This document shows, in pieces, positions 30,763 through 41,836 of a stretch of DNA of 43,672 nt. Source of the DNA: an uncultured SAR86 cluster bacterium. GTDB taxonomy: Bacteria; Pseudomonadota; Gammaproteobacteria; Magnimaribacterales; Magnimaribacteraceae. The first letter of the stretch is position 1; the number at the start of each line of letters is the position of its first letter. The translations under genes were made by a program, and so were the position numbers. A model generated the notes under the pieces. The model was given only the letters and a program-made list of their open reading frames with translations. It made no database searches and was not told the origin of the DNA. The stretch lies in contig CACJMO010000009.1 of the NCBI GenBank assembly GCA_902594545.1, positions 1 to 43,672 on the forward strand. Direction: 5' to 3'.

Positions 30763-31536
30763 ATGCAATACCTGAAGATAGAAAAACAAGATGCTATTGC
30801 AATAGTAAGCATCGATCGAACTGAATCTATGAATGCCTTGAGTATTGATGTTCTAAAGGAGATCTGCACATTAAAGGAACTCTTCAGAGAGGATCTAGAG
30901 ACAAGGGTAGTAATTTTTACTGGAGAAGGTAAAAATTTTTCTGCAGGAGCCGATCTTAAGGAAAAAGCTCAATTATCAACAAAACTAGAATCCTGGAGAA
31001 ACAACTTTGGAAAACCTGCCATTAAGTCAATATTAGAAATAGACCAAATAACAATAGCTGCTGTAAACGGATATTGTCTAGGAGGAGCTGCGTGTATCGC
31101 TTCAGCTTGTGACTTTAGAATCGCATCTGAAGAGGCGATATTGGGATACCCTGAAATTAACTTAGGAATTAACCTGAACTGGCTTGGATTACCTTTAGCT
31201 GTTCGTTTAATAGGACCTGCAAAAGCCAAGAAAATGGTGATTGGCGGAAAAAATGAAGATGCTAAAACCCTTTTTTCATGGGGTTTTTACGATGAAATAT
31301 GTCGACCTGAAGAACTGTTAATTAAAGCAAAAGAAATGGCCAGTCTTTATGCGTCCAAATCACCTATTGCCGCTCAAATGATCAAAAGGAGTGTTAACAA
31401 TCTTGTGTACAAGAATGATGAGTCCATAATGCATATGGACTATGACCAAACATTATTGACTCATGAAACTAAAGACCGAAAAGAGGCCGTTACAGCTTTC
31501 TTCGAGAAAAGAGAACCAGAGTTTAAAGGCGATTAA
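30763..31536 (+). CDS. Enoyl-CoA hydratase/isomerase family protein
   Basis: This 257-residue crotonase-fold protein has oxyanion-hole segments NFSAGAD (about 58-64) and CLGGAA (about 105-110). By eye, the Glu of the PE motif is kept (GYPEINLG, E131), while the GGGCE glutamate position is Cys111. A single-Glu arrangement is found in some hydratases and isomerases of the family, so the reaction is uncertain. It is in an operon with trxB, and its stop directly abuts that of the converging flavin oxidoreductase gene. Confidence 0.88.
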   Translation: MQYLKIEKQDAIAIVSIDRTESMNALSIDVLKEICTLKELFREDLETRVVIFTGEGKNFSAGADLKEKAQLSTKLESWRNNFGKPAIKSILEIDQITIAAVNGYCLGGAACIASACDFRIASEEAILGYPEINLGINLNWLGLPLAVRLIGPAKAKKMVIGGKNEDAKTLFSWGFYDEICRPEELLIKAKEMASLYASKSPIAAQMIKRSVNNLVYKNDESIMHMDYDQTLLTHETKDRKEAVTAFFEKREPEFKGD

Positions 31537-32517
31537 TTAAGCTGATTTACTCTCTAGAGCCTTTTTAGCTTCTTCGTATTCTTCCACTAAAGCATCAACA
31601 GCCTGTTTTACAGACGGTACATTGTGCAAGTTGCCAATGCCCTGTCCCGAGCCCCAAATATCTTTCCAAGCTTTCTTTTGGTTGTCACCACCCATTCCTG
31701 AACTTCCAAAGTTCATATCATTCTTATCGGCATACGGAAGATTATCTGGATCAAGCCCTGCGTTAACAACACTAGGCTTTAAGTAGTTTCCATGAACGCC
31801 TGTGAAAGTTGAAGAGTACATAATATCGTTGGCTGTACTTTCTACGATCATATCTTTATAGCCTTCAGAAGCATTCGCTTCCTCAGTAGCAATAAATCTT
31901 GTGCCAATGTAAGCGAAATCTGCACCCATAGCTTGAGCAGACAAGATAGATGCCCCATGAGAGATACTACCGGATAAAGCTACAGGTCCATCAAAGAATT
32001 CTCTTACTTCTCTAACTAAAGCAAAAGGACTGAGCGCACCAGCATGACCACCTGCTCCAGCACAAACAAGAATTAGTCCGTCCGCTCCCTCATCAACAGC
32101 TTTTTTTGCATGTCTTATATTAATTACATCATGCATCACAGCGCCGCCGTAGCTGTGCACTGCATCTACAACAGACTTAGGAGCTCTTAGACTTGTAATG
32201 ATTATTGGCACTTCATGTTCTACACACACTTCCATGTCATGTTCTAACCTATTATTTGAATGATGACATATCTGATTGACTGCAAAAGGAGCCACGACCG
32301 CATCAGGATTTTGCTCTTTAAATTCAGTAAGTTCCTTTTTCATCATTGAGATCCATTCTGTTAACTTTTCTTCAGGTCTCGCATTTAAAGCGGGAAAAGA
32401 ACCAACAACACCTGCTTTACACTGTGCTAATACAAGCTCAGGATAAGAAACAGTAAACAAAGGAGCACCGATAACAGGTATCCTAGTTTTATCTTTTAAA
32501 AAATTTACAACATCCAT
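31537..32517 (-). CDS. Nitronate monooxygenase-like FMN-dependent oxidoreductase (first copy)
   Basis: This 326-residue TIM-barrel flavoprotein is of the nitronate monooxygenase / 2-nitropropane dioxygenase superfamily, which also includes FabK-like and other NAD(P)H-dependent flavin oxidoreductases. The FMN-phosphate region reads GAGGHAG near residues 156-162 (with the catalytic-type His), followed by ALSGSISHG and GADFAYIGTRFIAT. True nitronate activity is not proven by sequence. A strong AGGAG ribosome-binding site precedes the ATG. It ends the SDR / sohB / acuI-like / small membrane protein operon. Confidence 0.88.
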   Translation of the reverse strand: MDVVNFLKDKTRIPVIGAPLFTVSYPELVLAQCKAGVVGSFPALNARPEEKLTEWISMMKKELTEFKEQNPDAVVAPFAVNQICHHSNNRLEHDMEVCVEHEVPIIITSLRAPKSVVDAVHSYGGAVMHDVINIRHAKKAVDEGADGLILVCAGAGGHAGALSPFALVREVREFFDGPVALSGSISHGASILSAQAMGADFAYIGTRFIATEEANASEGYKDMIVESTANDIMYSSTFTGVHGNYLKPSVVNAGLDPDNLPYADKNDMNFGSSGMGGDNQKKAWKDIWGSGQGIGNLHNVPSVKQAVDALVEEYEEAKKALESKSA

Positions 32518-32535
32518 TTTATTTCTCCTAATAGA

Positions 32536-32667
32536 TTACTGACTGGATACCCAAAAATAAGCTGCTGCAGTCAAACTTAAAATAATAACTACTGCAGCAA
32601 TGGCATCAAGCTTGCTGTCTTCTTGACGCATTAATTCTTTTTCTTCATCTGTATGATGATCTGACAT
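32536..32667 (-). CDS. Small single-pass membrane protein, 43 residues
   Basis: This short gene lies between the acuI-like and flavin-oxidoreductase genes. It starts at an ATG with an AGGAG ribosome-binding site 6-7 bases upstream. The first 20 residues are charged and acidic (MSDHHTDEEKELMRQ...). Residues 21-40 form one hydrophobic helix (AIAAVVIILSLTAAAYFW), and the protein ends in Ser-Ser-Gln. No signal peptidase site is visible, so it should stay anchored with the acidic end in the cytoplasm. Its function is unknown. A similar-sized membrane protein precedes the second copy of the flavin oxidoreductase. Confidence 0.78.
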   Translation of the reverse strand: MSDHHTDEEKELMRQEDSKLDAIAAVVIILSLTAAAYFWVSSQ

Positions 32668-32681
32668 TTCTATTCTCCTGT

Positions 32682-33671
32682 TTAATTTAAATTGACTAAT
32701 ACCCTGCCAACCTGTCCACCTTTCAAAATTGTATTTATTTCAGTCTCGAGTCCTTCCAAAGAAACTTCTCTAACCAGACCAGATAAGTCCAACTTCCAAT
32801 CTGATGCAAAATTTTCCCAGACTTCTTCCTTCTTGCCGAGTGGAATTTCTACTGAATCAATGCCCAAAAGAGCATTTCCTCTTAATATAAATGGAAAAAT
32901 AGAGCTTTCAAAAGATGGTCCTCCTACTAGGCCGCTGCATGCTACAGCACCACCTGGTCTTAAAGATGCTAATAAAAGAGATAGTACGCTTCCACTTACC
33001 ACATCTACGCCCATATCCCATAGAGGTTTTCCCATGGGCAGTCTAGTCATTTCGGCTAATTCATCCCTTGAGATTACTTCTGAAGCACCAAGTTTTTTTA
33101 ACATAGAATGTTCAGCTTCCTTTCCTGTGACGGCAGTTATCTCAGATCCGAGTTTAGACAAAAGCATAACAGCAATTGAACCAACTCCACCTGTGGAACC
33201 AGTTACGATAGATTTGAGACCTTCTAACTTTTGATCGGCATAATCTTCTAGTGCTTTTATAGATAGACCAGCGGTGAGTCCTGCTGTACCGAGAGACATT
33301 GCCTCAACTTCGCTAAGGCCCGAAGGTAATGAAATTGCCCAATCAGCAGGCACTCTTATGTATTGTCCGAAGCCTCCAGAAGTATCCATACCGAGGTCAT
33401 AACCAGTAACAATGACAGTATCCCCCTCTTTAAAGTTTGGGTTATTTGATTCTTGCACATTTCCCACGGCATCTATCCCAGGGGTATGAGGGTAATTTCT
33501 TGTAACACCAGGAGATCCAGAGGCAGATAAAGCATCTTTATAGTTCAAAGATGAATAATTAACTTTAATTAAGAGATCGCCTTCTGGCAGATCATTAATA
33601 CTTCTCTCTATGATAGATAATGTGTTTTGATTTTCCCCTTTTGAGGATTCAAGAGCTTTAAATGTTGTCAT
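32682..33671 (-). CDS. acuI: Acryloyl-CoA reductase-like quinone oxidoreductase (AcuI/YhdH, MDR family)
   Basis: This 329-residue medium-chain dehydrogenase/reductase lacks zinc ligands and matches the YhdH/AcuI subgroup. NYSSLNYKDALSASG, YPHTPGIDAVG and VTGSTGGVGSIAV (the NADPH Rossmann motif) are characteristic. AcuI reduces acryloyl-CoA to propionyl-CoA with NADPH, detoxifying acrylate from DMSP breakdown or reactive acyl-CoA from other routes. I see no DMSP lyase or dddP-type gene in the window, so general acrylate defence is equally likely. The ATG overlaps the sohB stop (ATGA). Confidence 0.87.
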   Translation of the reverse strand: MTTFKALESSKGENQNTLSIIERSINDLPEGDLLIKVNYSSLNYKDALSASGSPGVTRNYPHTPGIDAVGNVQESNNPNFKEGDTVIVTGYDLGMDTSGGFGQYIRVPADWAISLPSGLSEVEAMSLGTAGLTAGLSIKALEDYADQKLEGLKSIVTGSTGGVGSIAVMLLSKLGSEITAVTGKEAEHSMLKKLGASEVISRDELAEMTRLPMGKPLWDMGVDVVSGSVLSLLLASLRPGGAVACSGLVGGPSFESSIFPFILRGNALLGIDSVEIPLGKKEEVWENFASDWKLDLSGLVREVSLEGLETEINTILKGGQVGRVLVNLN

Positions 33672-34687
33672 GATATAAACCTGTCCCTGTTAATTAAGTC
33701 ATAAAATTTCATTAAAGATTTCTCCAAGATTAACTGCATTGAAAATGCAAACTTCTCCGACAAATTCTTTTTCTCCTCGAAGTTTATTTCAAATAATTTT
33801 GCACTTTTAGATAACTCTACTAAATAATTATCAGAAGTTTCCAAAGCGTCAACTAGTCCGACTTCTAATGCCTTTTCGCCTTGCCAAACTTCACCTGTGG
33901 CAACAACATCTGTATCTACTTGTGGGCGCTGGTCCTTTACAAAATCTTTAAAAATTAAATGGAGATCTTCTAAATCTTCTTTGAATTTTTCTCTTCCTGC
34001 ATCAGTATTTTCGCCAAGAGTTGTTAATGTTCTTTTAAATTCTCCCGCAGTATGCATCTCAAAATCAATTAAATTTTTCTTGAGAAGCCTGTGGAAATTT
34101 GGGAGTTGAGCAATAACACCAATTGAACCTACTATTGCCCAAGGTGCAGCTATTATTTTTGAAGCTACGCAAGACATAAGATAACCACCGCTTGCAGCAA
34201 CTTTGTCGATACATACCGTTAAATTAATTTTATTATCAACCAGTCTTTTGAGCTCAGCTGCACAAAGACCGTAGGCGTAAGCCGATCCTCCTCCGCTTTC
34301 AACTTTAACTACTACCTCTTTACATTGTGTTTCAGATAAAAGAATTGCATTTATTTCTTGTTTTAGCTTTTCAACCTCAGAAGCTTGGATATCTCCTTTA
34401 AAGTTAAGAACAAAGACTGATTCTTCAGTATCCTCTTTATTCTTTTTCTTTTTCTTTTTAGCTTCTTCTTTGTTAAATTTCTTTAACTCTTTAGGATTCA
34501 TCAAGGACCCTTTTACAGCATTACCCATTTCCTCATATTTCTCGGAAAGGTTGCTGATACTTAGCTTCCCTTTTGGTAACGATTTACCTTTTGAAGAGCC
34601 GATTATCATCAACAGAGGCACTGTGACAGCAAGAGCTATCGTGAATACCTTCAGTAAGAAGATTAAGTAATCTAAGAGAAGTTCCAT
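33668..34687 (-). CDS. sohB: S49-family inner-membrane protease SohB
   Basis: This 339-residue membrane-anchored serine protease has an N-terminal helix (about 8-29) and a Lys-rich linker (residues 74-84). The ClpP-like domain has Ser166 (AASGGYL) and Lys218 (GEFKRT) forming the expected Ser-Lys dyad. SohB and SppA cut signal-peptide remnants and damaged membrane proteins. It follows the SDR gene by 3 bases and overlaps the acuI-like gene by 4, so it is in the middle of this operon. Confidence 0.94.
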   Translation of the reverse strand: MELLLDYLIFLLKVFTIALAVTVPLLMIIGSSKGKSLPKGKLSISNLSEKYEEMGNAVKGSLMNPKELKKFNKEEAKKKKKKNKEDTEESVFVLNFKGDIQASEVEKLKQEINAILLSETQCKEVVVKVESGGGSAYAYGLCAAELKRLVDNKINLTVCIDKVAASGGYLMSCVASKIIAAPWAIVGSIGVIAQLPNFHRLLKKNLIDFEMHTAGEFKRTLTTLGENTDAGREKFKEDLEDLHLIFKDFVKDQRPQVDTDVVATGEVWQGEKALEVGLVDALETSDNYLVELSKSAKLFEINFEEKKNLSEKFAFSMQLILEKSLMKFYDLINRDRFIS

Positions 34688-34690
34688 TTT

Positions 34691-35458
34691 TTACTTGGGC
34701 TGCATCCTAATTGCACCATCCAATCTAATGGTCTCTCCATTTAGAAAAGGATTTTCAACCATATGTTTTGCGAGTGCGGCATACTCAGAAGGTATACCTA
34801 ATCTCTTAGGAAATTGTGTCATTTCTATGAGAGGATTTCTAACAGCATCCGGTGCCATACCCATTAAAGGAGTATCGAAAATACCAGGAGCTATTGTGTT
34901 GATTCTAATTCCCATTCTGGCCAAATCTCTAGCTATGGGAAGAGTCATACCAACAACTCCGCCTTTACTCGCGCTATAGGCAGCTTGACCAATTTGACCA
35001 TCAAAAGCAGCAACTGAAGCAGTATTTATTATCACGCCACACTCTCCATCTTCATTAGGTTCATTATCTGCCATTGCAACAGCAGCTAGTCTTAAAACGT
35101 TAAAAGTTCCATTTAAGTTGATGTCAACAACTGTCTTAAAATAATCAAGGGGATGAGCACCATTTTTACCAACAGTTTTACTGGCGCTACCAATACCTGC
35201 ACAGTTTACAACTACATGTAGGCCGCCAAAAACCTCCACGGTTTTATCTACGGCAGATTGGACGGAAGATTCATCAGTAACATTAGCAATGACGTAACTT
35301 GCATTTGATCCAAGCTTTTCCACGGCACTTTTTGCATTATCTTCGTTTAGATCTAAAAGCATGATCTTAGCACCTGCATCAAGTAATGTTTCTGCAGTAG
35401 CTAAACCTAAGCCTGAAGCACCACCAGTTATAAGAGCTACTTTATTTGAAATTTCCAT
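34691..35458 (-). CDS. SDR family 3-hydroxyacyl-CoA dehydrogenase-like protein (HSD10 type)
   Basis: This 255-residue short-chain dehydrogenase has TGGASGLG (11-18), NCAG (85-88), and the catalytic residues Ser148, Tyr161 and Lys165 (AYSASKGG). The long insertion before the active site and the end [10 protein letters not shown]...[13 protein letters not shown] match type 2 3-hydroxyacyl-CoA dehydrogenases (HSD17B10-like), which oxidise 3-hydroxy-2-methylbutyryl-CoA and related intermediates. An AGGAG ribosome-binding site precedes the ATG. It is the first gene of the operon that ends with the flavin oxidoreductase at 31537. Confidence 0.9.
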
Positions 35459-35489
35459 TTTTTCTCCTGTTATCTCGCATTAAAAGTTG

Positions 35490-35503
35490 CGTGATATTAC
35501 ACG
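35490..35503. repeat. Inverted repeat in the SDR promoter region (possible operator)
   Basis: CGTG-ATATTA-CACG is a perfect 4-base inverted repeat with a 6-base centre, 32 to 45 bases upstream of the SDR start. It overlaps a TAATAT sequence on the minus strand that could be the -10 box. A small repressor site is possible, but the repeat is short enough to occur by chance. Confidence 0.3.
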
Positions 35504-35558
35504 ATAAGAGAAAAAAATTCATGAATAGTATCCTTGTAAGAACTAAAAAAAACGACAT

Positions 35559-35575
35559 CGCACGAAAATAGTGCA
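35559..35575 (+). promoter_or_regulatory. NtrC-like activator binding site
   Basis: CGCACGAAAATAGTGCA contains GCAC-N7-GTGC, the half-site arrangement and spacing of the E. coli glnA NtrC sites (GCAC-N7-GTGC). It is centred about 63 bases before the start predicted from the sigma-54 element at 35603-35620. Only one such site is seen. Confidence 0.5.
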
Positions 35576-35602
35576 ATTTTTAATTAAATTACTTAATTTT
35601 AA

Positions 35603-35620
35603 TTGGCACCTAAATTGCAT
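35603..35620 (+). promoter_or_regulatory. Sigma-54 (-24/-12) promoter of the TorF porin gene
   Basis: TTGGCACCTAAATTGCAT fits the sigma-54 consensus TGGCAC-N5-TTGC exactly, with the GG and GC dinucleotides separated by 10 bases. The predicted start is near 35630, leaving a leader of about 30 bases with a good TAAGGAG ribosome-binding site. A weak sigma-70 reading (TTGGCA with TATTTG 17 bases later) is also possible. Confidence 0.65.
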
Positions 35621-35660
35621 ATTTGTATTTGTATTATTTATAAACTTATAAGGAGTTAGA

Positions 35661-36275
35661 ATGAAAAATCTTTTAAAACTTGGGGTCATAACTGTTTTTT
35701 CAAGTGTTATGTCTCTTCAAGCTGCTGAATTTGAGAGCAATGTAGCTCTTTCAAACGACTATGTTTGGAGAGGAATGTCTCAAACTTCAGAAGAACCTGC
35801 GATTTCTGGTGGTTTCGACATTGCTGGTGATAGTGGACTTTATTTTGGTACATGGGCTTCCAACGTAGAATTTGGAGATGGAGCTGCATTGGAACTTGAC
35901 TGGTATGCAGGATATGCAAGCGAGCTCGAAAATGGTTTCAGTTATGACATCGGGTACCTTGCATACACTTATCCTGGTGAAGACTCATTAGATTTCGAAG
36001 AGATCTACTTAGGGCTCGGCTATAGCTATTTTGGATACACTTTTTCTTCAGGACAAGATGGAGCACCTGATAATTCCGAAATTTCTGTAGCACTTGGTGA
36101 TACTGGACTAGGGTTTACTTACGGCGACTATGATGATTATGGCGAATACACTTTAATTAGTTATGATCTGCCCGTATCGATAGCTGGACTTTCAGTATCC
36201 CTAGCTTTTAGCGACTTCGACGCTGAGGCTGACGGTGCCGACGAAGACACTTTCCTAATAACTTTCTCAATGTAA
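35661..36275 (+). CDS. TorF/Gcw_chp-family putative outer-membrane porin
   Basis: This 204-residue protein has a signal peptide (cleaved near AAEFES, about residue 21) and alternating short beta-strands ending in a C-terminal aromatic-free LITFSM. The opening mature sequence FESNVALSNDYVWRGMSQT is the hallmark of the TIGR02001 (Gcw_chp, TorF) family. In many Proteobacteria such genes lie next to glnK-amtB, suggesting a role in nitrogen-compound uptake across the outer membrane. Here it stands alone, with its own sigma-54-like promoter and terminator. It has a strong TAAGGAG ribosome-binding site. Confidence 0.88.
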   Translation: MKNLLKLGVITVFSSVMSLQAAEFESNVALSNDYVWRGMSQTSEEPAISGGFDIAGDSGLYFGTWASNVEFGDGAALELDWYAGYASELENGFSYDIGYLAYTYPGEDSLDFEEIYLGLGYSYFGYTFSSGQDGAPDNSEISVALGDTGLGFTYGDYDDYGEYTLISYDLPVSIAGLSVSLAFSDFDAEADGADEDTFLITFSM

Positions 36276-36326
36276 TTCTTAACTCCCCGTTAAGTTAGCA
36301 TTCTTATACTCCCCAGTTAGGATGCA
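36276..36326. repeat. Imperfect tandem repeat after the TorF gene
   Basis: Two copies of about 25 bases follow the stop codon: TTCTTAACTCCCCGTTAAG... (36276-36300) and TTCTTATACTCCCCAGTTAG... (36301-36326), sharing TTCTTA-ACTCCCC-GTTA and GCA. The first copy also forms a hairpin (CTTAAC / GTTAAG). It lies between the porin stop and its terminator, so it would be in the 3' end of the mRNA. Confidence 0.6.
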
Positions 36327-37478
36327 TTAAGGGCCAGACGCAAGTCTGGCCTTTTCTTTGTTAAAAAGTGGTCTTGCATAAGTAAGTAAAAGTTCTTTTT
36401 TTTCTTCAGTGCTAAGACCTTTAGTTCTATCCTGTAAAAACCTATATGAATCACTATTCACAAAAGTTGGATCGTATAAATCAGATTCAAAATTATTTTC
36501 TTTTAGTAAGCAAATTGCAGAGTATGAAACCGGCCAAATCTTATAATTCTTAATTATCTCTGTTTCAATTGATGCAGCGAGTTTGCTCGTTTCAGACAAA
36601 GAAGTATCGATGGGCTTGCAAATGTGCAAATGCACTTTGCCTTTAAATCCAAAAATTCCTTTTGCCATTTCCATTAAATCGCTTTGATTAATCTCTTGGT
36701 TAGACATTGAATCTTGATGATCCCAGCCCTTTGCCTTGATTACATCCAAAGGATCGTACTCGTAAGAAATCGATACAGGGGTCAGATTGGTATTTTTTAT
36801 CCAATCATTCAGGTCTAGATCTTTTCTGTGATGAAGATAGAGCATTTTTAAGACAGCTTCATCCGTATAGTCGTTTCCATCATTAGCTCTGCCCTCTTTT
36901 TGAGCAATCCAAATACTTTCGTTATCTTGAAATAGAGAGTGGCTTATATAAGCCGATAGCTTAGTAAGCTTTCTCAAGGTTTCTTTTATGCCCTTAATAT
37001 CTCTATGAACTACAAAGCTTTTGTTCAATCTCATGAGATTTTCTGCAAACCCTCCATCTAGCAAATTATCACCTATTGCAATTCTCACAGTGCTATATCT
37101 CTCAGAATGTAAAAGATAATTCAAAAAGGCTGGATCAAGAGATATATCTCTATGATTTCCAATAAAAAGTGTAGGTCTGTCTGAAAGATTCTCTTCACCA
37201 CTATAAGAAAAACCACTTGTTGTTTTGGCAATCATGCTCTCTACAAGTGGAGCCATGCGATCTTGAAACTGCTCTATTGAATCGCAATCACCGAAAATTT
37301 GAATAAACTTCCTTTTGATATAAAACTGGAAAAATGCAGAAAAAAATTTATTTCCTTTTGGGTAAATTAAGTCAGCAATGAATTGATGAAATTCTTTATC
37401 ATTCTCTAGTTCTTTAAGTTTGTCTTTGACTTCTCTATCTTCAAAGGACTTTATATCTTCAAAATTTTGATCGCTCAT
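36327..37478 (-). CDS. PlsC-like lysophospholipid acyltransferase family protein
   Basis: This 383-residue protein resembles glycerol-phosphate acyltransferases. The first motif is GNHRDISLD (107-115): the His and Asp are separated by five residues where PlsC has four, a variant I associate with a distinct acyltransferase subgroup. The EGR motif is QKEGRAND (193-200). An N-terminal stretch of about 90 residues precedes the catalytic domain, and no clear transmembrane helix is seen, so it is probably a peripheral membrane enzyme. Downstream of an alpha/beta hydrolase and opposite a glycerophosphodiesterase, it suggests phospholipid remodelling. Confidence 0.82.
   Translation of the reverse strand: MSDQNFEDIKSFEDREVKDKLKELENDKEFHQFIADLIYPKGNKFFSAFFQFYIKRKFIQIFGDCDSIEQFQDRMAPLVESMIAKTTSGFSYSGEENLSDRPTLFIGNHRDISLDPAFLNYLLHSERYSTVRIAIGDNLLDGGFAENLMRLNKSFVVHRDIKGIKETLRKLTKLSAYISHSLFQDNESIWIAQKEGRANDGNDYTDEAVLKMLYLHHRKDLDLNDWIKNTNLTPVSISYEYDPLDVIKAKGWDHQDSMSNQEINQSDLMEMAKGIFGFKGKVHLHICKPIDTSLSETSKLAASIETEIIKNYKIWPVSYSAICLLKENNFESDLYDPTFVNSDSYRFLQDRTKGLSTEEKKELLLTYARPLFNKEKARLASGP
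36329..36355 (+). terminator. Intrinsic terminator of the TorF gene, inside the opposing gene's coding end
   Basis: GGCCAGAC-GCAA-GTCTGGCC is a perfect 8-base stem with a GNRA-type tetraloop, preceded by AAG and followed by TTTTCTTT on the plus strand. It occupies the last codons of the converging acyltransferase gene (encoding ARLASGP). Confidence 0.88.
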
Positions 37479-37517
37479 TTATATTCAAACATGCTGTGAT
37501 GAGGCAGATAGAGGGTT

Positions 37518-38477
37518 TTAATCTTGGTGTGAGTCTATGAAATCAATAATAGCTCTACCAACCTGCGTAGGTTGTCTATATGTGACATCATGAGTACCCT
37601 CTTCAATAGTAATCAATCTTCCGTTTGGAAAGATTTCTTTAAACTCCTCAGAGCCACTATATGGAACCACTCCATCCAATGTTCCCCATATAGCTGAAAT
37701 GGGTACATTTTTATTGTTTAAGCTTCGGTACATTTCCCTAGCATCAAATAAATTGAAGTTTCTGACTGTAGATAACAAAGATTCATTGAAGCCAGTAAAA
37801 ACTAATTGTTTTTGGAATAAAGGCAAAAACTCGTCTTCATTTATTGATAAAGGATCATCACTGAATTGTGTTTCAGACATATTTCCAACTCCATAGAGGC
37901 GGTTACTAAAGACTCTCCAAAACCAATCACCAATTATAGGCATTGTTATCCAACTTCCCGTTGAAGGAGAAATTTTACTAAATCCTGCAGGTGCAATCAG
38001 TGAGGCACTTTTTGTATGCTCAGGGTAAGATTCAGCATAGTGTCCAACAATAGGTCCGCCCATTGAATAACCGACTAGATGAACTTTTTCTTTTATCTCT
38101 TGTGAGGCAATTAGTTCTCTTAACGTCTCTACGTACAAATCTTTATCATAAGGGATTCTAGGCCTCTCTGAATACCCTCTTCCAAAATGATCATACACGA
38201 GCACTTTAAAGCCTTTATCTAGAAACTGATTTATAAGCCCTCTCCACACAAAGCTTGGTGTAGAAAAGCCATGAACCAATACTAATGTTCCTTTGTATTC
38301 CAACTCATTTTTAGGAAGAAACCATTCATAATATATATGTCCCCTTGATAACTTTACCCAGCTGCCACTTTCAGGTATGTCGTCAATCGTAATTTTCTTC
38401 AAATTGTAAATTTGATAAAAATAAGGAATCGCAAGAAGTCCTATGATTAAAAATACTAGTAGAAAAAGTTTCTCCAT
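37518..38477 (-). CDS. Membrane-anchored alpha/beta hydrolase
   Basis: This 319-residue protein has an N-terminal hydrophobic helix (about 3-20) and an alpha/beta-hydrolase fold. The oxyanion-hole region is LVHGFSTPSF (67-76), the nucleophile elbow is GYSMGG with Ser138, and Asp (GTLDGVVPYSG) and His (EEGTHDVTYR) complete the triad. Substrates may be lipids or esters. An AAGGAG ribosome-binding site precedes the ATG. It lies 39 bases upstream of the acyltransferase on the same strand, and a lipase/acyltransferase pair is plausible. Confidence 0.86.
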   Translation of the reverse strand: MEKLFLLVFLIIGLLAIPYFYQIYNLKKITIDDIPESGSWVKLSRGHIYYEWFLPKNELEYKGTLVLVHGFSTPSFVWRGLINQFLDKGFKVLVYDHFGRGYSERPRIPYDKDLYVETLRELIASQEIKEKVHLVGYSMGGPIVGHYAESYPEHTKSASLIAPAGFSKISPSTGSWITMPIIGDWFWRVFSNRLYGVGNMSETQFSDDPLSINEDEFLPLFQKQLVFTGFNESLLSTVRNFNLFDAREMYRSLNNKNVPISAIWGTLDGVVPYSGSEEFKEIFPNGRLITIEEGTHDVTYRQPTQVGRAIIDFIDSHQD

Positions 38478-38523
38478 ATTAAGCTCCTTTCTCTATAGTA
38501 TAGTCCAATAAATAAGTAGATTA

Positions 38524-39270
38524 ATGCATCCTTTTTTTCAAGACTTCGATTTCTATGGCTTCGTCCATAGAGGCGGAGATGAAGTTGAAACAGAAAATAC
38601 CCTCGAAGCCTTTAAATACTCTTCTGACTTAGGTTTTGTTTTTATGGAAACGGATGTGCAAGCCACGAAAGATGGTCATGTAGTCATATTTCATGACTCT
38701 AACCTAAAAAGAATGGCGGGAATTAAAAAAAAAATAAGTCAGTTGAATCTTGAGGAAGTTAAATCCATTGAACTCTTAAATGGAGGAAAAATACCTCTCT
38801 TGAGTGAAACCCTTGAAAGTTTTCCCAGTCTTCGTTTTAACATCGACATTAAAACCGAGGATGCTTTGGATGAGACAGTTAAAATCGTCAAAAGAATGAA
38901 TCGTTTGGATAGGGTCTGTCTCGCCTCCTTTTCTTCAAAGAGACTAAAAAAAATAAGGGAGTTATCCGGCCCCAATGCATGTACTTCTTCCGGTCAAATG
39001 GATATCTTTAAAATGATCTGTAACTCTATTGGATTCAACTTTGAAGCTGTAGCTAGTGATTGTGCTCAAATCCCTCTTTCTCAATGGGGCTTACCAGTCT
39101 TAACAAGAAGATTTTTAAAGGTTGCACAAAAACAAAATAAATTAGTACATATTTGGACAATAGATGATGAGCAGACAATGTATGATCTTATAGATTTTGG
39201 AGTCCAAGGTCTTATGACAGACAAACCAAGCATACTCAAAAAGGCTTTGGTAAATAGAGGATTATTTTAA
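38524..39270 (+). CDS. Glycerophosphodiester phosphodiesterase family protein
   Basis: This 248-residue TIM-barrel enzyme hydrolyses glycerophosphodiesters to glycerol 3-phosphate and an alcohol. The GDPD motif is clear: H15-R16 (VHRGG), E24-N25-T26, E42-x-D44 (METDVQATKDG) and H57-D58 (IFHDSN). There is no signal peptide, so it is cytosolic. The end (LVHIWTIDDEQTMYDLIDFGVQGLMTDKP) is the conserved last strands of the family. No ribosome-binding site is visible. Its stop overlaps that of the converging UMF1 gene by 4 bases (TTAA). Confidence 0.93.
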   Translation: MHPFFQDFDFYGFVHRGGDEVETENTLEAFKYSSDLGFVFMETDVQATKDGHVVIFHDSNLKRMAGIKKKISQLNLEEVKSIELLNGGKIPLLSETLESFPSLRFNIDIKTEDALDETVKIVKRMNRLDRVCLASFSSKRLKKIRELSGPNACTSSGQMDIFKMICNSIGFNFEAVASDCAQIPLSQWGLPVLTRRFLKVAQKQNKLVHIWTIDDEQTMYDLIDFGVQGLMTDKPSILKKALVNRGLF

Positions 39271-40517
39271 TCGGGCACTCTTCTCAGTAATATTAATCCT
39301 GGTATAAATAAAACAAGCAGGCTGAGTATTCCAATACTTGGACTGCCTGAAATCAAAGCTATACCTGAAACCATAAAAGGCCCTATAAAGACAGAAGATT
39401 TCCCTATGAAGTTATAAAAGCCAAAAAATTCAGCAGCCTTGTCCTCAGGAATGAGGGTACTGAAATAAGATCTGCTAATGGCCTGAACACCTCCTTGAAC
39501 AAGCCCTATTACAGAGGCCATAACGAAGAACTCAATTGCACTATCCATCTGAGAACTAAATATCACCACACCTATGTAAACTAGAATTGCAAAAGACAAT
39601 GTTTGCTTGTGTCCGAATTTATCGGAATATTTTCCAAAAACAAGTGTAGCTGGAAAACCTATAAATTGAGTCAATAAAAGTGCACCAATCATGGATTGAG
39701 CAGACAAGCCAATATCTGAACCGTATGAGGTTGCCATTCTAATGATCGTATCTACCCCATCCATATAGAGAAAATAAGCAAGCAAAAATATTACTGCACT
39801 TTTGTATCTGCTAATGGATTGGCTTGTTTGATAAAGGCTTTGAAAAGCATCTTTAGATATTTGAAAGAATGTTTTTCCTTCTTCCGCTAATTTTGTTTCT
39901 TTAACACCTGTAATTAAGGGCACTGTAAAAATACTCCACCAAATCGCGACACTTAAAAAGGACCAAAGAACAGCTTCTACTTGAGAGTTGAGTCCAAATG
40001 AGTTTGGAAAAGAAAACATTAATACGTTAATTAGAAATAGAAGACCTCCTCCAAGGTAACCTAAAGAAAATCCCAAGGAAGAAACTCTATTTCTGTCCTT
40101 ATTGCCAGAAACTGAAACCAATAGGGAATCATAAAAGATATTTCCCCCCGAAAATCCGATTACACCCACTGCATAAAAGGTAATAGCAAATTTCCAGGAG
40201 CTTTCTGGTATGAAAAATAAATAACCCGTCGCCAATATGCCTAATACTGCAAATGTTAAAAGTAATTTCTTCTTAGAGTTACCTGCATCTGCAATAGCAC
40301 CCATAACAGGGGCACTAATTGCAATCAAAAGCCCAACTAACGAGTTAGCTGATCCAATAATAAAAGTGCTTTCAGCATCTGGTAAATCAGATGCCCAGTA
40401 AGATTTAAAGAAAATAGGAAAAAATCCAGCCATGACTGTTGTTGCGAATGCTGAATTTGCCCAATCATAGAAGGCCCAACGCCATGCTTGGTTAGATAAT
40501 TTTCTTTGACGTTTCAT
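39267..40517 (-). CDS. MFS transporter, UMF1/Atg22-like
   Basis: This 416-residue protein has about twelve membrane helices and opens with QAWRWAFYDWANSAFATTVM, the diagnostic N-terminus of the UMF1 (Atg22-like vacuole effluxer) family of MFS proteins. The loop KYSDKFGHKQTL in the second half is a motif-A equivalent. Family substrates are poorly known; amino acids are suspected for Atg22. The ATG has no clear ribosome-binding site, and a TTATTAT box lies just upstream. It is divergent from the small membrane protein / flavin oxidoreductase pair. Confidence 0.9.
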   Translation of the reverse strand: MKRQRKLSNQAWRWAFYDWANSAFATTVMAGFFPIFFKSYWASDLPDAESTFIIGSANSLVGLLIAISAPVMGAIADAGNSKKKLLLTFAVLGILATGYLFFIPESSWKFAITFYAVGVIGFSGGNIFYDSLLVSVSGNKDRNRVSSLGFSLGYLGGGLLFLINVLMFSFPNSFGLNSQVEAVLWSFLSVAIWWSIFTVPLITGVKETKLAEEGKTFFQISKDAFQSLYQTSQSISRYKSAVIFLLAYFLYMDGVDTIIRMATSYGSDIGLSAQSMIGALLLTQFIGFPATLVFGKYSDKFGHKQTLSFAILVYIGVVIFSSQMDSAIEFFVMASVIGLVQGGVQAISRSYFSTLIPEDKAAEFFGFYNFIGKSSVFIGPFMVSGIALISGSPSIGILSLLVLFIPGLILLRRVPD

Positions 40518-40558
40518 ATGATTTGTGTGAATAATAACTCTTTTATTGGGAGGAAAAA

Positions 40559-40669
40559 ATGGAAGAGGATAAAAAGACTTATAAATACATGACTATGTTT
40601 GGTGCGATCATCGGTGTAGTTGTAGTTCTGCAATTAATATTAGCGAACTATCTTCAATCTATTTACTAG
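40559..40669 (+). CDS. Small single-pass membrane protein, 36 residues
   Basis: This short gene has a strong GGGAGG ribosome-binding site about 6 bases before the ATG. It encodes a charged N-terminus (MEEDKKTYKY), one hydrophobic helix (MFGAIIGVVVVLQLILA, about residues 13-29) and a short polar end. It lies 30 bases upstream of the second nitronate-monooxygenase-like gene on the same strand and is probably co-transcribed with it. Its size, layout and place parallel the 43-residue protein at 32536-32667, although the sequences are not obviously homologous. Function unknown. Confidence 0.75.
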   Translation: MEEDKKTYKYMTMFGAIIGVVVVLQLILANYLQSIY

Positions 40670-40699
40670 ATCTATTCAAACATAATAAAAGGAGAGATT

Positions 40700-41836
40700 A
40701 TGAACTCAAAAATTTGTGAGCTTTTAGATATTGAGTTTCCTTTGGTTGCTTTTACACATTGTAGGGATGTTGTAGTAGCAGTATCAAAAGCCGGAGGTTG
40801 TGGAGTCTTAGGTGCAGTAGGCATGTCACCTGAGCAACTTGAACAAGAACTTAAGTGGATTGATGACCATATAGATGGAAAACCATATGGTGTTGACGTT
40901 CTAATACCTAACAAAATGGTAGATCAAAGTGAAAAGTTTGATCCTGAAAAATTAAAAGGCATGATTCCCCAAGAGTACGCTGACTTTAGAGCAGATGTTC
41001 TTGAAAACCATGATATAGAAGCAAGTGATTTAAGAACTATAGATACTGCGGGTTCCAGCTTTGCTGCGAATACTAAATCTGATGGAGCTAAGGCGCTACT
41101 AGATGTAGCTTTTAATCATCCGATTAAGTTGATAGCCAATGCATTGGGAGTCCCGCCAGATTGGATGCTGGAAATGGGTAAAGAAAATGATGTAAAAGTG
41201 GCTGCCCTACTGGGAACCGCCCAACATGCAATCAATCAGGTGAAAGCAGGCGTAGATATACTTGTTGTATCAGGAACGGAGGCAGGCGGTCATTGCGGAA
41301 GTGTCTCTACCATGGTTTTAATTCCTGAAGTCTATGAAGCCATTCAACCTTATGGCGATGTTCCTATTCTAGCTGCGGGTGGAATAGTCACTGGAAAACA
41401 AATGGCTGCTGCAATGACAATGGGAGCCTCCGGAGCTTGGTGTGGATCAGTTTGGTTAACTACTGTTGAATCAGAAGTGCCTCCGGTTATCAAAGAAAAG
41501 ATGGTAGCAGCAAATTCAAGTCAAACAGTTCGCTCAAGAAGTCGTACAGGAAAGCACTCAAGACAACTTGTTTCACCCTGGACAGAAGCTTGGGAATCAG
41601 AATCAGCACCTGAACCACTGCCGATGCCGCTTCAGCCTATGGTTGCAGAACCTGCACTTCAAAAAGTGGCGAAACTTGCAGAAGGTGGCCACGGTGGAGC
41701 AAAAGACTTAGCAACATACTGGGTCGGGCAAGGTGTAGGCCTGATGAATCAGAGCATATCAGCAAGTGATGTTGTTCAAGAGTTTAAAGAGGACTTTATC
41801 GGAGCTTACGAGAGGCTAACGGGGTTCGTTGAATAA
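40700..41836 (+). CDS. Nitronate monooxygenase-like FMN-dependent oxidoreductase (second copy)
   Basis: This 378-residue flavoprotein is of the same superfamily as the enzyme at 31537-32517, but of a different, longer subgroup. Conserved parts include CDV-region VAFTHCRDVVVAVSKAGGCGVLG at the N-terminus, VVSGTEAGGHCGSVSTMVL (the GGH FMN region), AAGGIVTGKQMAAAMTMGA and CGSVWLTT. The C-terminal 100 residues include an RSRTGKHSR segment not present in the first copy. The ATG has a GGAGAG ribosome-binding site. The natural substrate is unknown; acyl-CoA or lipid-derived nitro compounds cannot be told apart here. Confidence 0.88.
   Translation: MNSKICELLDIEFPLVAFTHCRDVVVAVSKAGGCGVLGAVGMSPEQLEQELKWIDDHIDGKPYGVDVLIPNKMVDQSEKFDPEKLKGMIPQEYADFRADVLENHDIEASDLRTIDTAGSSFAANTKSDGAKALLDVAFNHPIKLIANALGVPPDWMLEMGKENDVKVAALLGTAQHAINQVKAGVDILVVSGTEAGGHCGSVSTMVLIPEVYEAIQPYGDVPILAAGGIVTGKQMAAAMTMGASGAWCGSVWLTTVESEVPPVIKEKMVAANSSQTVRSRSRTGKHSRQLVSPWTEAWESESAPEPLPMPLQPMVAEPALQKVAKLAEGGHGGAKDLATYWVGQGVGLMNQSISASDVVQEFKEDFIGAYERLTGFVE

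Follow-up and report, generated by a model that had tools for sequence, protein, structure and literature searches.

A TorF-type porin gene of a SAR86 bacterium with a predicted NtrC/sigma-54 promoter, standing apart from glnK-amtB

Proteins of PF09694/TIGR02001 are catalogued as 'protein of unknown function' or 'TorF family putative porin', and we take NlmA of Herbaspirillum seropedicae to be a TIGR02001 member. By the geometry of sigma-54 promoters, transcription begins 12 nt beyond the -12 element, and the NtrC sites of glnAp2 lie at -108 and -140. The pores of the porins KdgM and NanC, as those of other sugar-acid porins, are basic. One report describes the nlmA (orf1)-glnK-amtB genes of H. 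seropedicae as an NtrC-dependent operon in which an amtB::lacZ fusion rose 21-fold under nitrogen limitation, and NlmA, found in membrane extracts, was placed most probably in the periplasm (PMC3023670). A different device, the glutamine riboswitch, is described in a second report (PMC9004378) from cyanobacteria, from further bacteria of the sea and from a marine phage. Among the matches listed, the titles and opening abstract lines of open-access papers held no report of NtrC, rpoN or glutamine riboswitch regulation in SAR86.

Here we describe the torF gene of an uncultured SAR86 cluster bacterium. The window, that is, the whole stretch of DNA analyzed (43,672 nt), is contig C9 of a 1.34 Mb genome assembly that is 71% complete. 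It was compared with 81 relatives including its own genome, belonging to the SAR86 family of the window (f1) and to the sister families f2, f3 and f4, and with a sample of Gammaproteobacteria. In our best explanation, to which we assign a probability of roughly 0.8, torF would encode an acidic barrel that is induced through NtrC and sigma-54, became detached from a torF-glnK-amtB operon and aids nitrogen uptake. New in this are the split locus, the compact and rigid promoter spacing and the control of the same gene by promoter or by riboswitch in sister families; the arrangement is already known in kind from H. seropedicae, whose NtrC-dependent operon serves as the experimental precedent.

The torF locus and its gene order

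The torF gene (35661-36275, forward strand) encodes 204 residues with a signal peptide at about residues 1-22, read by eye, as was the AAGGAG ribosome-binding site at 35650-35655 (forward strand). Its product scores 126.8 bits against TIGR02001 (cut-off 47.15) and 96.7 bits against PF09694 (cut-off 24), in agreement with the family assignment first made from the sequence. The predicted sigma-54 promoter TTGGCACCTAAATTGCAT (-24/-12) occupies 35603-35620 on the forward strand, 58 to 41 nt 5' of the ATG at 35661, and is an exact TGGCAC-N5-TTGC with the GG-N10-GC core. Upstream, at 35560-35574, without strand assignment, lies the NtrC-type dyad GCACGAAAATAGTGC, of the form GCAC-N7-GTGC, at a distance of 44 nt from the box. 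Both elements thus stand where the original prediction had placed them, and each exact pattern occurs once in the window. From sigma-54 geometry, transcription is predicted to start at 35630 (forward strand), 12 nt downstream of the C in the -12 GC, which puts the centre of the dyad at about -63. The box and the half-site spacing are those of the NtrC/sigma-54 promoters of glnA (glnAp2) and glnK.

torF stands alone between an SDR dehydrogenase gene read divergently (34691-35458, reverse strand) and a convergent acyltransferase gene (36327-37478, reverse strand), which served as the left and right synteny markers. A terminator-like site of the intrinsic type, found by sequence scan at 36329-36354 on the forward strand, follows torF, which is therefore read as monocistronic. 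No TMAO-respiration genes were seen in 31000-41000 (ORF list inspected by eye, with a Pfam scan of two flanking genes), and the TorF name thus misfits the setting of a gene that is otherwise like the TorF porins in its scores and predicted fold. Reading the name as TMAO uptake was rejected, as the neighbours gave it no support and the literature listings yielded no paper tying the gene to TMAO.

A torF gene was found in 67 of the 81 genomes (26/35 in f1, 13/16 in f2, 15/15 in f3 and 13/15 in f4). All 13 f2 loci have the order box-torF-glnK-amtB, with glnK and then amtB directly after torF and the same SDR gene on the other side; at its far end the block is bounded by the same acyltransferase gene in 12 loci, the thirteenth being cut by a contig end. 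In f2, glnK and amtB thus lie between torF and the acyltransferase gene, and the gene order is that of nlmA-glnK-amtB, in which the gene of a membrane-associated protein also comes first. In f1, by contrast, the SDR, torF and acyltransferase genes lie together with no match to glnK or amtB in the five loci retrieved over that length. The source genome carries two glnK-amtB copies elsewhere, each with its own sigma-54 box, and its torF is not part of the nlmA-type gene order. Given the shared flanking genes, the window torF is split from glnK-amtB, and its description as an orphan holds by synteny with f2.

The orphan state arose either because f1 lost glnK-amtB from the locus or because f2 acquired them there by insertion. 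We consider the loss likelier, because adjacency of torF and amtB is common in the class: of 74 class genomes with TIGR02001, at least 37 have an amtB no more than 2.5 kb from it, most often at a distance of some 500 nt, a lower bound among the amtB matches listed (the f4 genome G037 is one missed). The tendency of TIGR02001 genes to sit beside glnK-amtB, stated in the original prediction, is thereby borne out for amtB. The window gene would then have begun as the first gene of an ancestral torF-glnK-amtB operon and become detached when glnK and amtB left the f1 locus, torF itself keeping both its place and its sigma-54/NtrC promoter.

The f4 torF genes are preceded by the glutamine riboswitch RF01739 in 12/12 leaders with sequence available (57-71 bits; gathering threshold 35), at a distance of 55-70 nt from the start codon, and amtB is the next gene in 12/12 loci, with no glnK match. 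The riboswitch would lower expression of torF-amtB at high glutamine. At threshold, RF01739 was found before none of the f3 torF genes scanned, with 0/9 loci in one scan and 0/5 in another. In the source genome it was detected only at C1:66810-66926 and thus not before torF, in contrast to the related f4 genes. Further RF01739 matches stand before GSII or GSI genes, both in f4 and in the f2 genus g15, and before a gltB-like gene in the f3 genus g13 (gene identities by eye). The source-genome match is a tandem pair in front of a basic ORF of 46 codons that matched nothing in Pfam (L242 1430-1709), possibly encoding a peptide resembling the glutamine-synthetase-inactivating factors, by analogy with the cyanobacterial gif genes.

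The predicted barrel

An AlphaFold2 model of the torF product, built from an alignment of 74 of the 75 torF ORFs from the window and its relatives (the G002 ORF, which holds an X, was omitted), is a 12-strand barrel with a pLDDT of 91.2 and a pTM of 0.80. In Foldseek searches the sole solved structure with E below 0.001 was the porin VhGalP (8xua; E 7.5e-4), and KdgM (4fqe) and NanC (2wjq) came next, among other porins. These three share only 8-12% identity with the query, at a TM of about 0.55 by query length. The window barrel differs from these 12-strand porins in its composition. Past residue 22 it has 35 Asp/Glu, a single Lys/Arg (Arg37) and no His, giving a net charge of -34. The predicted pore side holds 12 acidic and no basic residues and the lipid side 6 and 0, an assignment made crudely from strand alternation rather than from coordinates. 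So negative a barrel would favour cations. AT-rich codon use favours Lys and Asn, and the acidic composition runs counter to this.

Side-chain nitrogen is correspondingly scarce, at 0.071 atoms per residue past residue 22 and 0.083 for the whole protein, the lowest value among 40 ORFs of the window (median 0.309). Family means past residue 22 are 0.092 in f1, 0.085 in f2, 0.121 in f3 and 0.070 in f4, and the Gammaproteobacteria sample gave 0.168 and 0.191. Low side-chain nitrogen is thus a family-wide trait, strongest in SAR86. The acidic composition fits either cation selectivity or nitrogen sparing. It was also considered as a sign of nitrogen control, a use that is weakened by the acidity of the f3 proteins and of class members not adjacent to amtB.

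The strongest competing reading accepts the promoter and denies the import of nitrogen: the barrel would be a general or carbon-source porin of the KdgM/NanC kind, or an envelope-remodelling protein of nitrogen starvation. Its closest solved folds, VhGalP, KdgM and NanC, are indeed oligogalacturonate and sialic-acid porins, and f3 retains one to three acidic torF copies without box, riboswitch at threshold or nearby amtB, so no visible nitrogen control is needed for the barrel to be of use. One paper, moreover, argues that sigma-54 centrally controls the exterior of bacteria (PMC3162934). Against this stand the shared operon with glnK and amtB in all f2 loci and with amtB in all 12 f4 loci, the adjacency to amtB in at least half of the class genomes, and the fact that the gene is under nitrogen-status control of two unrelated kinds. 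The acidity of the window barrel also sets it against the basic sugar-acid porins, and on balance we regard a role other than nitrogen import as rather unlikely.

A role of the TorF barrel in nitrogen acquisition is likely, to judge from gene order and shared control. The barrel would then most probably make the outer membrane more permeable to ammonium or to a different small nitrogen compound, which AmtB or other carriers would take in. Ammonium as the main substrate is a doubtful proposal. Slightly better placed, and still tentative, is the wider suggestion that TIGR02001 barrels may be dedicated nitrogen-limitation channels, probably selective for cations and passing ammonium or small amines, whose switches were exchanged within SAR86; a near lack of nitrogen-bearing side chains is what would be expected of a bulk protein made when nitrogen is short.

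Promoter conservation and regulators

Both regulators sought after the original prediction are encoded in the source genome. RpoN, with its core-binding and DNA-binding domains, lies on contig C3, and a single full NtrC (receiver domain, AAA+ domain with GAFTGA, Fis-type HTH) adjoins NtrB, ntrBC being located downstream of a GSII-type glutamine synthetase gene (glnII). The enzyme encoded with ntrBC (L050 3738-4843; 323 residues, by eye) is of the GSII type instead of the usual GSI. Weak PF00158 matches on contig C10, in a 754-aa frame, were dismissed as other AAA proteins.

Among the relatives, rpoN was found in 26/35 f1 and 12/16 f2 genomes and in 0/15 of f4, and f3 yielded only C-terminal fragments, in 5/15. 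Strong matches to bacterial enhancer-binding proteins (bEBPs) were present in 32/35, 13/16, 11/15 and 0/15 genomes of f1, f2, f3 and f4, and none of the 81 genomes had more than one. The f2 genus g15 lacks torF, rpoN and NtrC/bEBP matches in 3/3 genomes. No rpoN was found in seven of the 38 f1 and f2 genomes with a torF box (G007, G014, G020, G021, G023, G029 and G065), probably owing to incomplete assemblies. The f3 fragments (G069, G036, G063, G075 and G078) are intact ORFs of 78-91 aa in which nothing of sigma-54 is left but the C-terminal RpoN-box part (PF04552). The one in G069 (L259 1108-1341, reverse strand) comes immediately behind an lptB-like gene, the position that full rpoN occupies in the source genome. 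Such ORFs may be remnants or small DNA-binding proteins. The NtrC of f3 keeps GAFTGA in G036 and G060, and has GAFKGA in G039, which has no rpoN match.

The exact box occurs three times in the whole source genome, before torF, before glnK-amtB and before an operon of two microproteins; with up to one mismatch it occurs at 62 places. The exact dyad is likewise found at three places, the torF leader, the glnII-ntrBC leader and inside a coding frame at C1:220236. The pattern TGGCAY-N5-TTGCWT was present in 19/19 genomes of the genus, in one to seven copies, and the reversed pattern in none, a soft control because the reversed pattern is CpG-rich. Box matches numbered 2-9 in 13 f2 genomes (g15 excluded) and 0-4 in 15 genomes without full rpoN (12 of f3 and f4, three of g15). 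Because matches to the box by itself also turn up as background where full rpoN is lacking, it is the position and conservation of the box that count.

Leaders of 75 torF ORFs were compared, the 26th f1 gene (G010) being cut by a contig end. The box, with up to one mismatch, was present in 25/25 f1 leaders; the dyad was exact in 17/25 and, with up to two mismatches, lay 42-44 nt from the box start in 24/25, the exception being G020. Conserved columns of the f1 alignment cover the box and the dyad, and also a TGTA where transcription is predicted to start. All 13 f2 leaders carry the box, whereas it is missing from the 24 f3 ORFs and from the 13 f4 leaders (that of G070 with just 83 nt available). 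The box is thus present in 38/38 leaders of f1 and f2, against 0/37 in f3 and f4, the families without full rpoN. The regulatory reading of the original prediction is supported by this conservation, and the computational refutations named with it failed.

The promoter of torF is not special to the source genome and is common across the class. In a sample of 20 of the 37 amtB-adjacent genomes, with genes analyzed in-frame and expectations taken from first-order Markov resampling, the TIGR02001 genes had the box in 18/20 (0.42 expected), the exact dyad in 17/20 (0.21 expected) and both in 16. For 20 of the 37 other genomes, which may include adjacent cases absent from the list, the box was found in 12/20 (0.46 expected), the exact dyad in 5/20 (0.16 expected) and both in 5. 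From the frequency of box and dyad in the amtB-adjacent sample, the sigma-54/NtrC promoter of torF is probably ancestral. The distance between box and dyad was 78-145 nt in the class sample, a range that the 44 nt of the window do not match; the f1 enhancer, a single dyad kept at 42-44 nt, is both closer and more rigid in its placement.

The sigma-54 box might instead work with another or a distant enhancer, the nearby dyad not being the activator, as may hold in f2. No credible dyad was found within 200 nt in the f2 torF leaders (L114-L126), where the best matches, with two to four mismatches at scattered places, were not accepted; several f2 glnII leaders do carry NtrC dyads. Several boxes of the window's own genus also lack a dyad with up to one mismatch within 150 nt. 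The fixed dyad spacing in f1, however, and the lack of a second strong bEBP match in any of the 81 genomes make a different activator of the window gene improbable. A chance origin of box and dyad, with torF transcribed from the sigma-70 promoter TTGGCA/TATTTG remarked on in the original prediction, has a negligible probability: the GG-N10-GC core is short and has its background, but the distribution of the box over the families and the rigid f1 spacing speak against it, and sigma-70 consensus sites in 35440-36420 numbered none, with 2.5 expected from shuffles.

Control of the window torF by NtrC and sigma-54 is therefore the reading we retain as very probable. The promoter elements, the regulators, the gene order of f1 versus f2 and the f4 riboswitch rest on sequence and conservation, from which we infer binding by NtrC and induction by nitrogen limitation. 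Under nitrogen shortage, NtrB would phosphorylate NtrC, which would bind the dyad at about -63 and drive sigma-54 RNA polymerase at TGGCAC-N5-TTGC, and the output would be a monocistronic mRNA for the small acidic barrel, a predicted outer-membrane protein.

The genus regulon and implications

The genus yielded 91 listed box sites, of which 30 were fetched and 26 assigned: nine to glnK, eight to a pair of microproteins, three each to torF, an Anbu-like protease and a TauE-like permease. The expectation that glnA, glnK and amtB would carry the same pair of elements held in part. In the source genome, glnK1 has the box and lacks the standard dyad, showing only outward-facing half-sites, and the glnII-ntrBC leader has dyads and no box of the TGGCAC-N5-TTGC type.

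The microprotein pair (about 40 and 44 aa, with hydrophobic stretches by eye and no Pfam match) is conserved right behind the sigma-54 box in the ten genus genomes in which it was seen. In the source genome (L052 1823-2079; contig C7, site 33295) the ORF begins 10 nt past the box, and the same pair follows sites in L084, L085, L086, L094, L099, L102, L109, L110 and L138. Genes resembling TonB-dependent receptors, by eye, lie behind sigma-54 boxes with no near NtrC dyad in L252, L257 and L260 (f2) and in L152 (f1).

According to one study, Anbu increases in nitrogen-limited Pseudomonas putida and is unchanged under various other conditions (PMC5666114). In the f1 genome G011, a sigma-54 box and an NtrC dyad precede the gene of a 493-aa partner of the Anbu-like protein; there, on contig C10 (L142 about 2025-2203), the two genes are separated by a pair of divergent sigma-54 boxes with a single NtrC-type dyad in common. 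In two f2 genomes with rpoN, RF01739 precedes a 477-aa ORF (L229 and L232) that is 53-54% identical to the 493-aa partner over 474 residues. As judged from these leaders, nitrogen-status switches would have been exchanged on torF (f1 and f2 versus f4) and apparently also on the Anbu partner (f1 versus two f2 genomes).

SAR86 bacteria are abundant in the ocean, where they live at low ammonium. With two unrelated nitrogen controls on torF and a class-wide linkage to amtB, nitrogen acquisition at the outer membrane becomes a directly testable function for PF09694/TIGR02001. Families of one order with full, remnant or no sigma-54/NtrC would show the dismantling of a regulatory system, and its replacement, in the course of genome streamlining.
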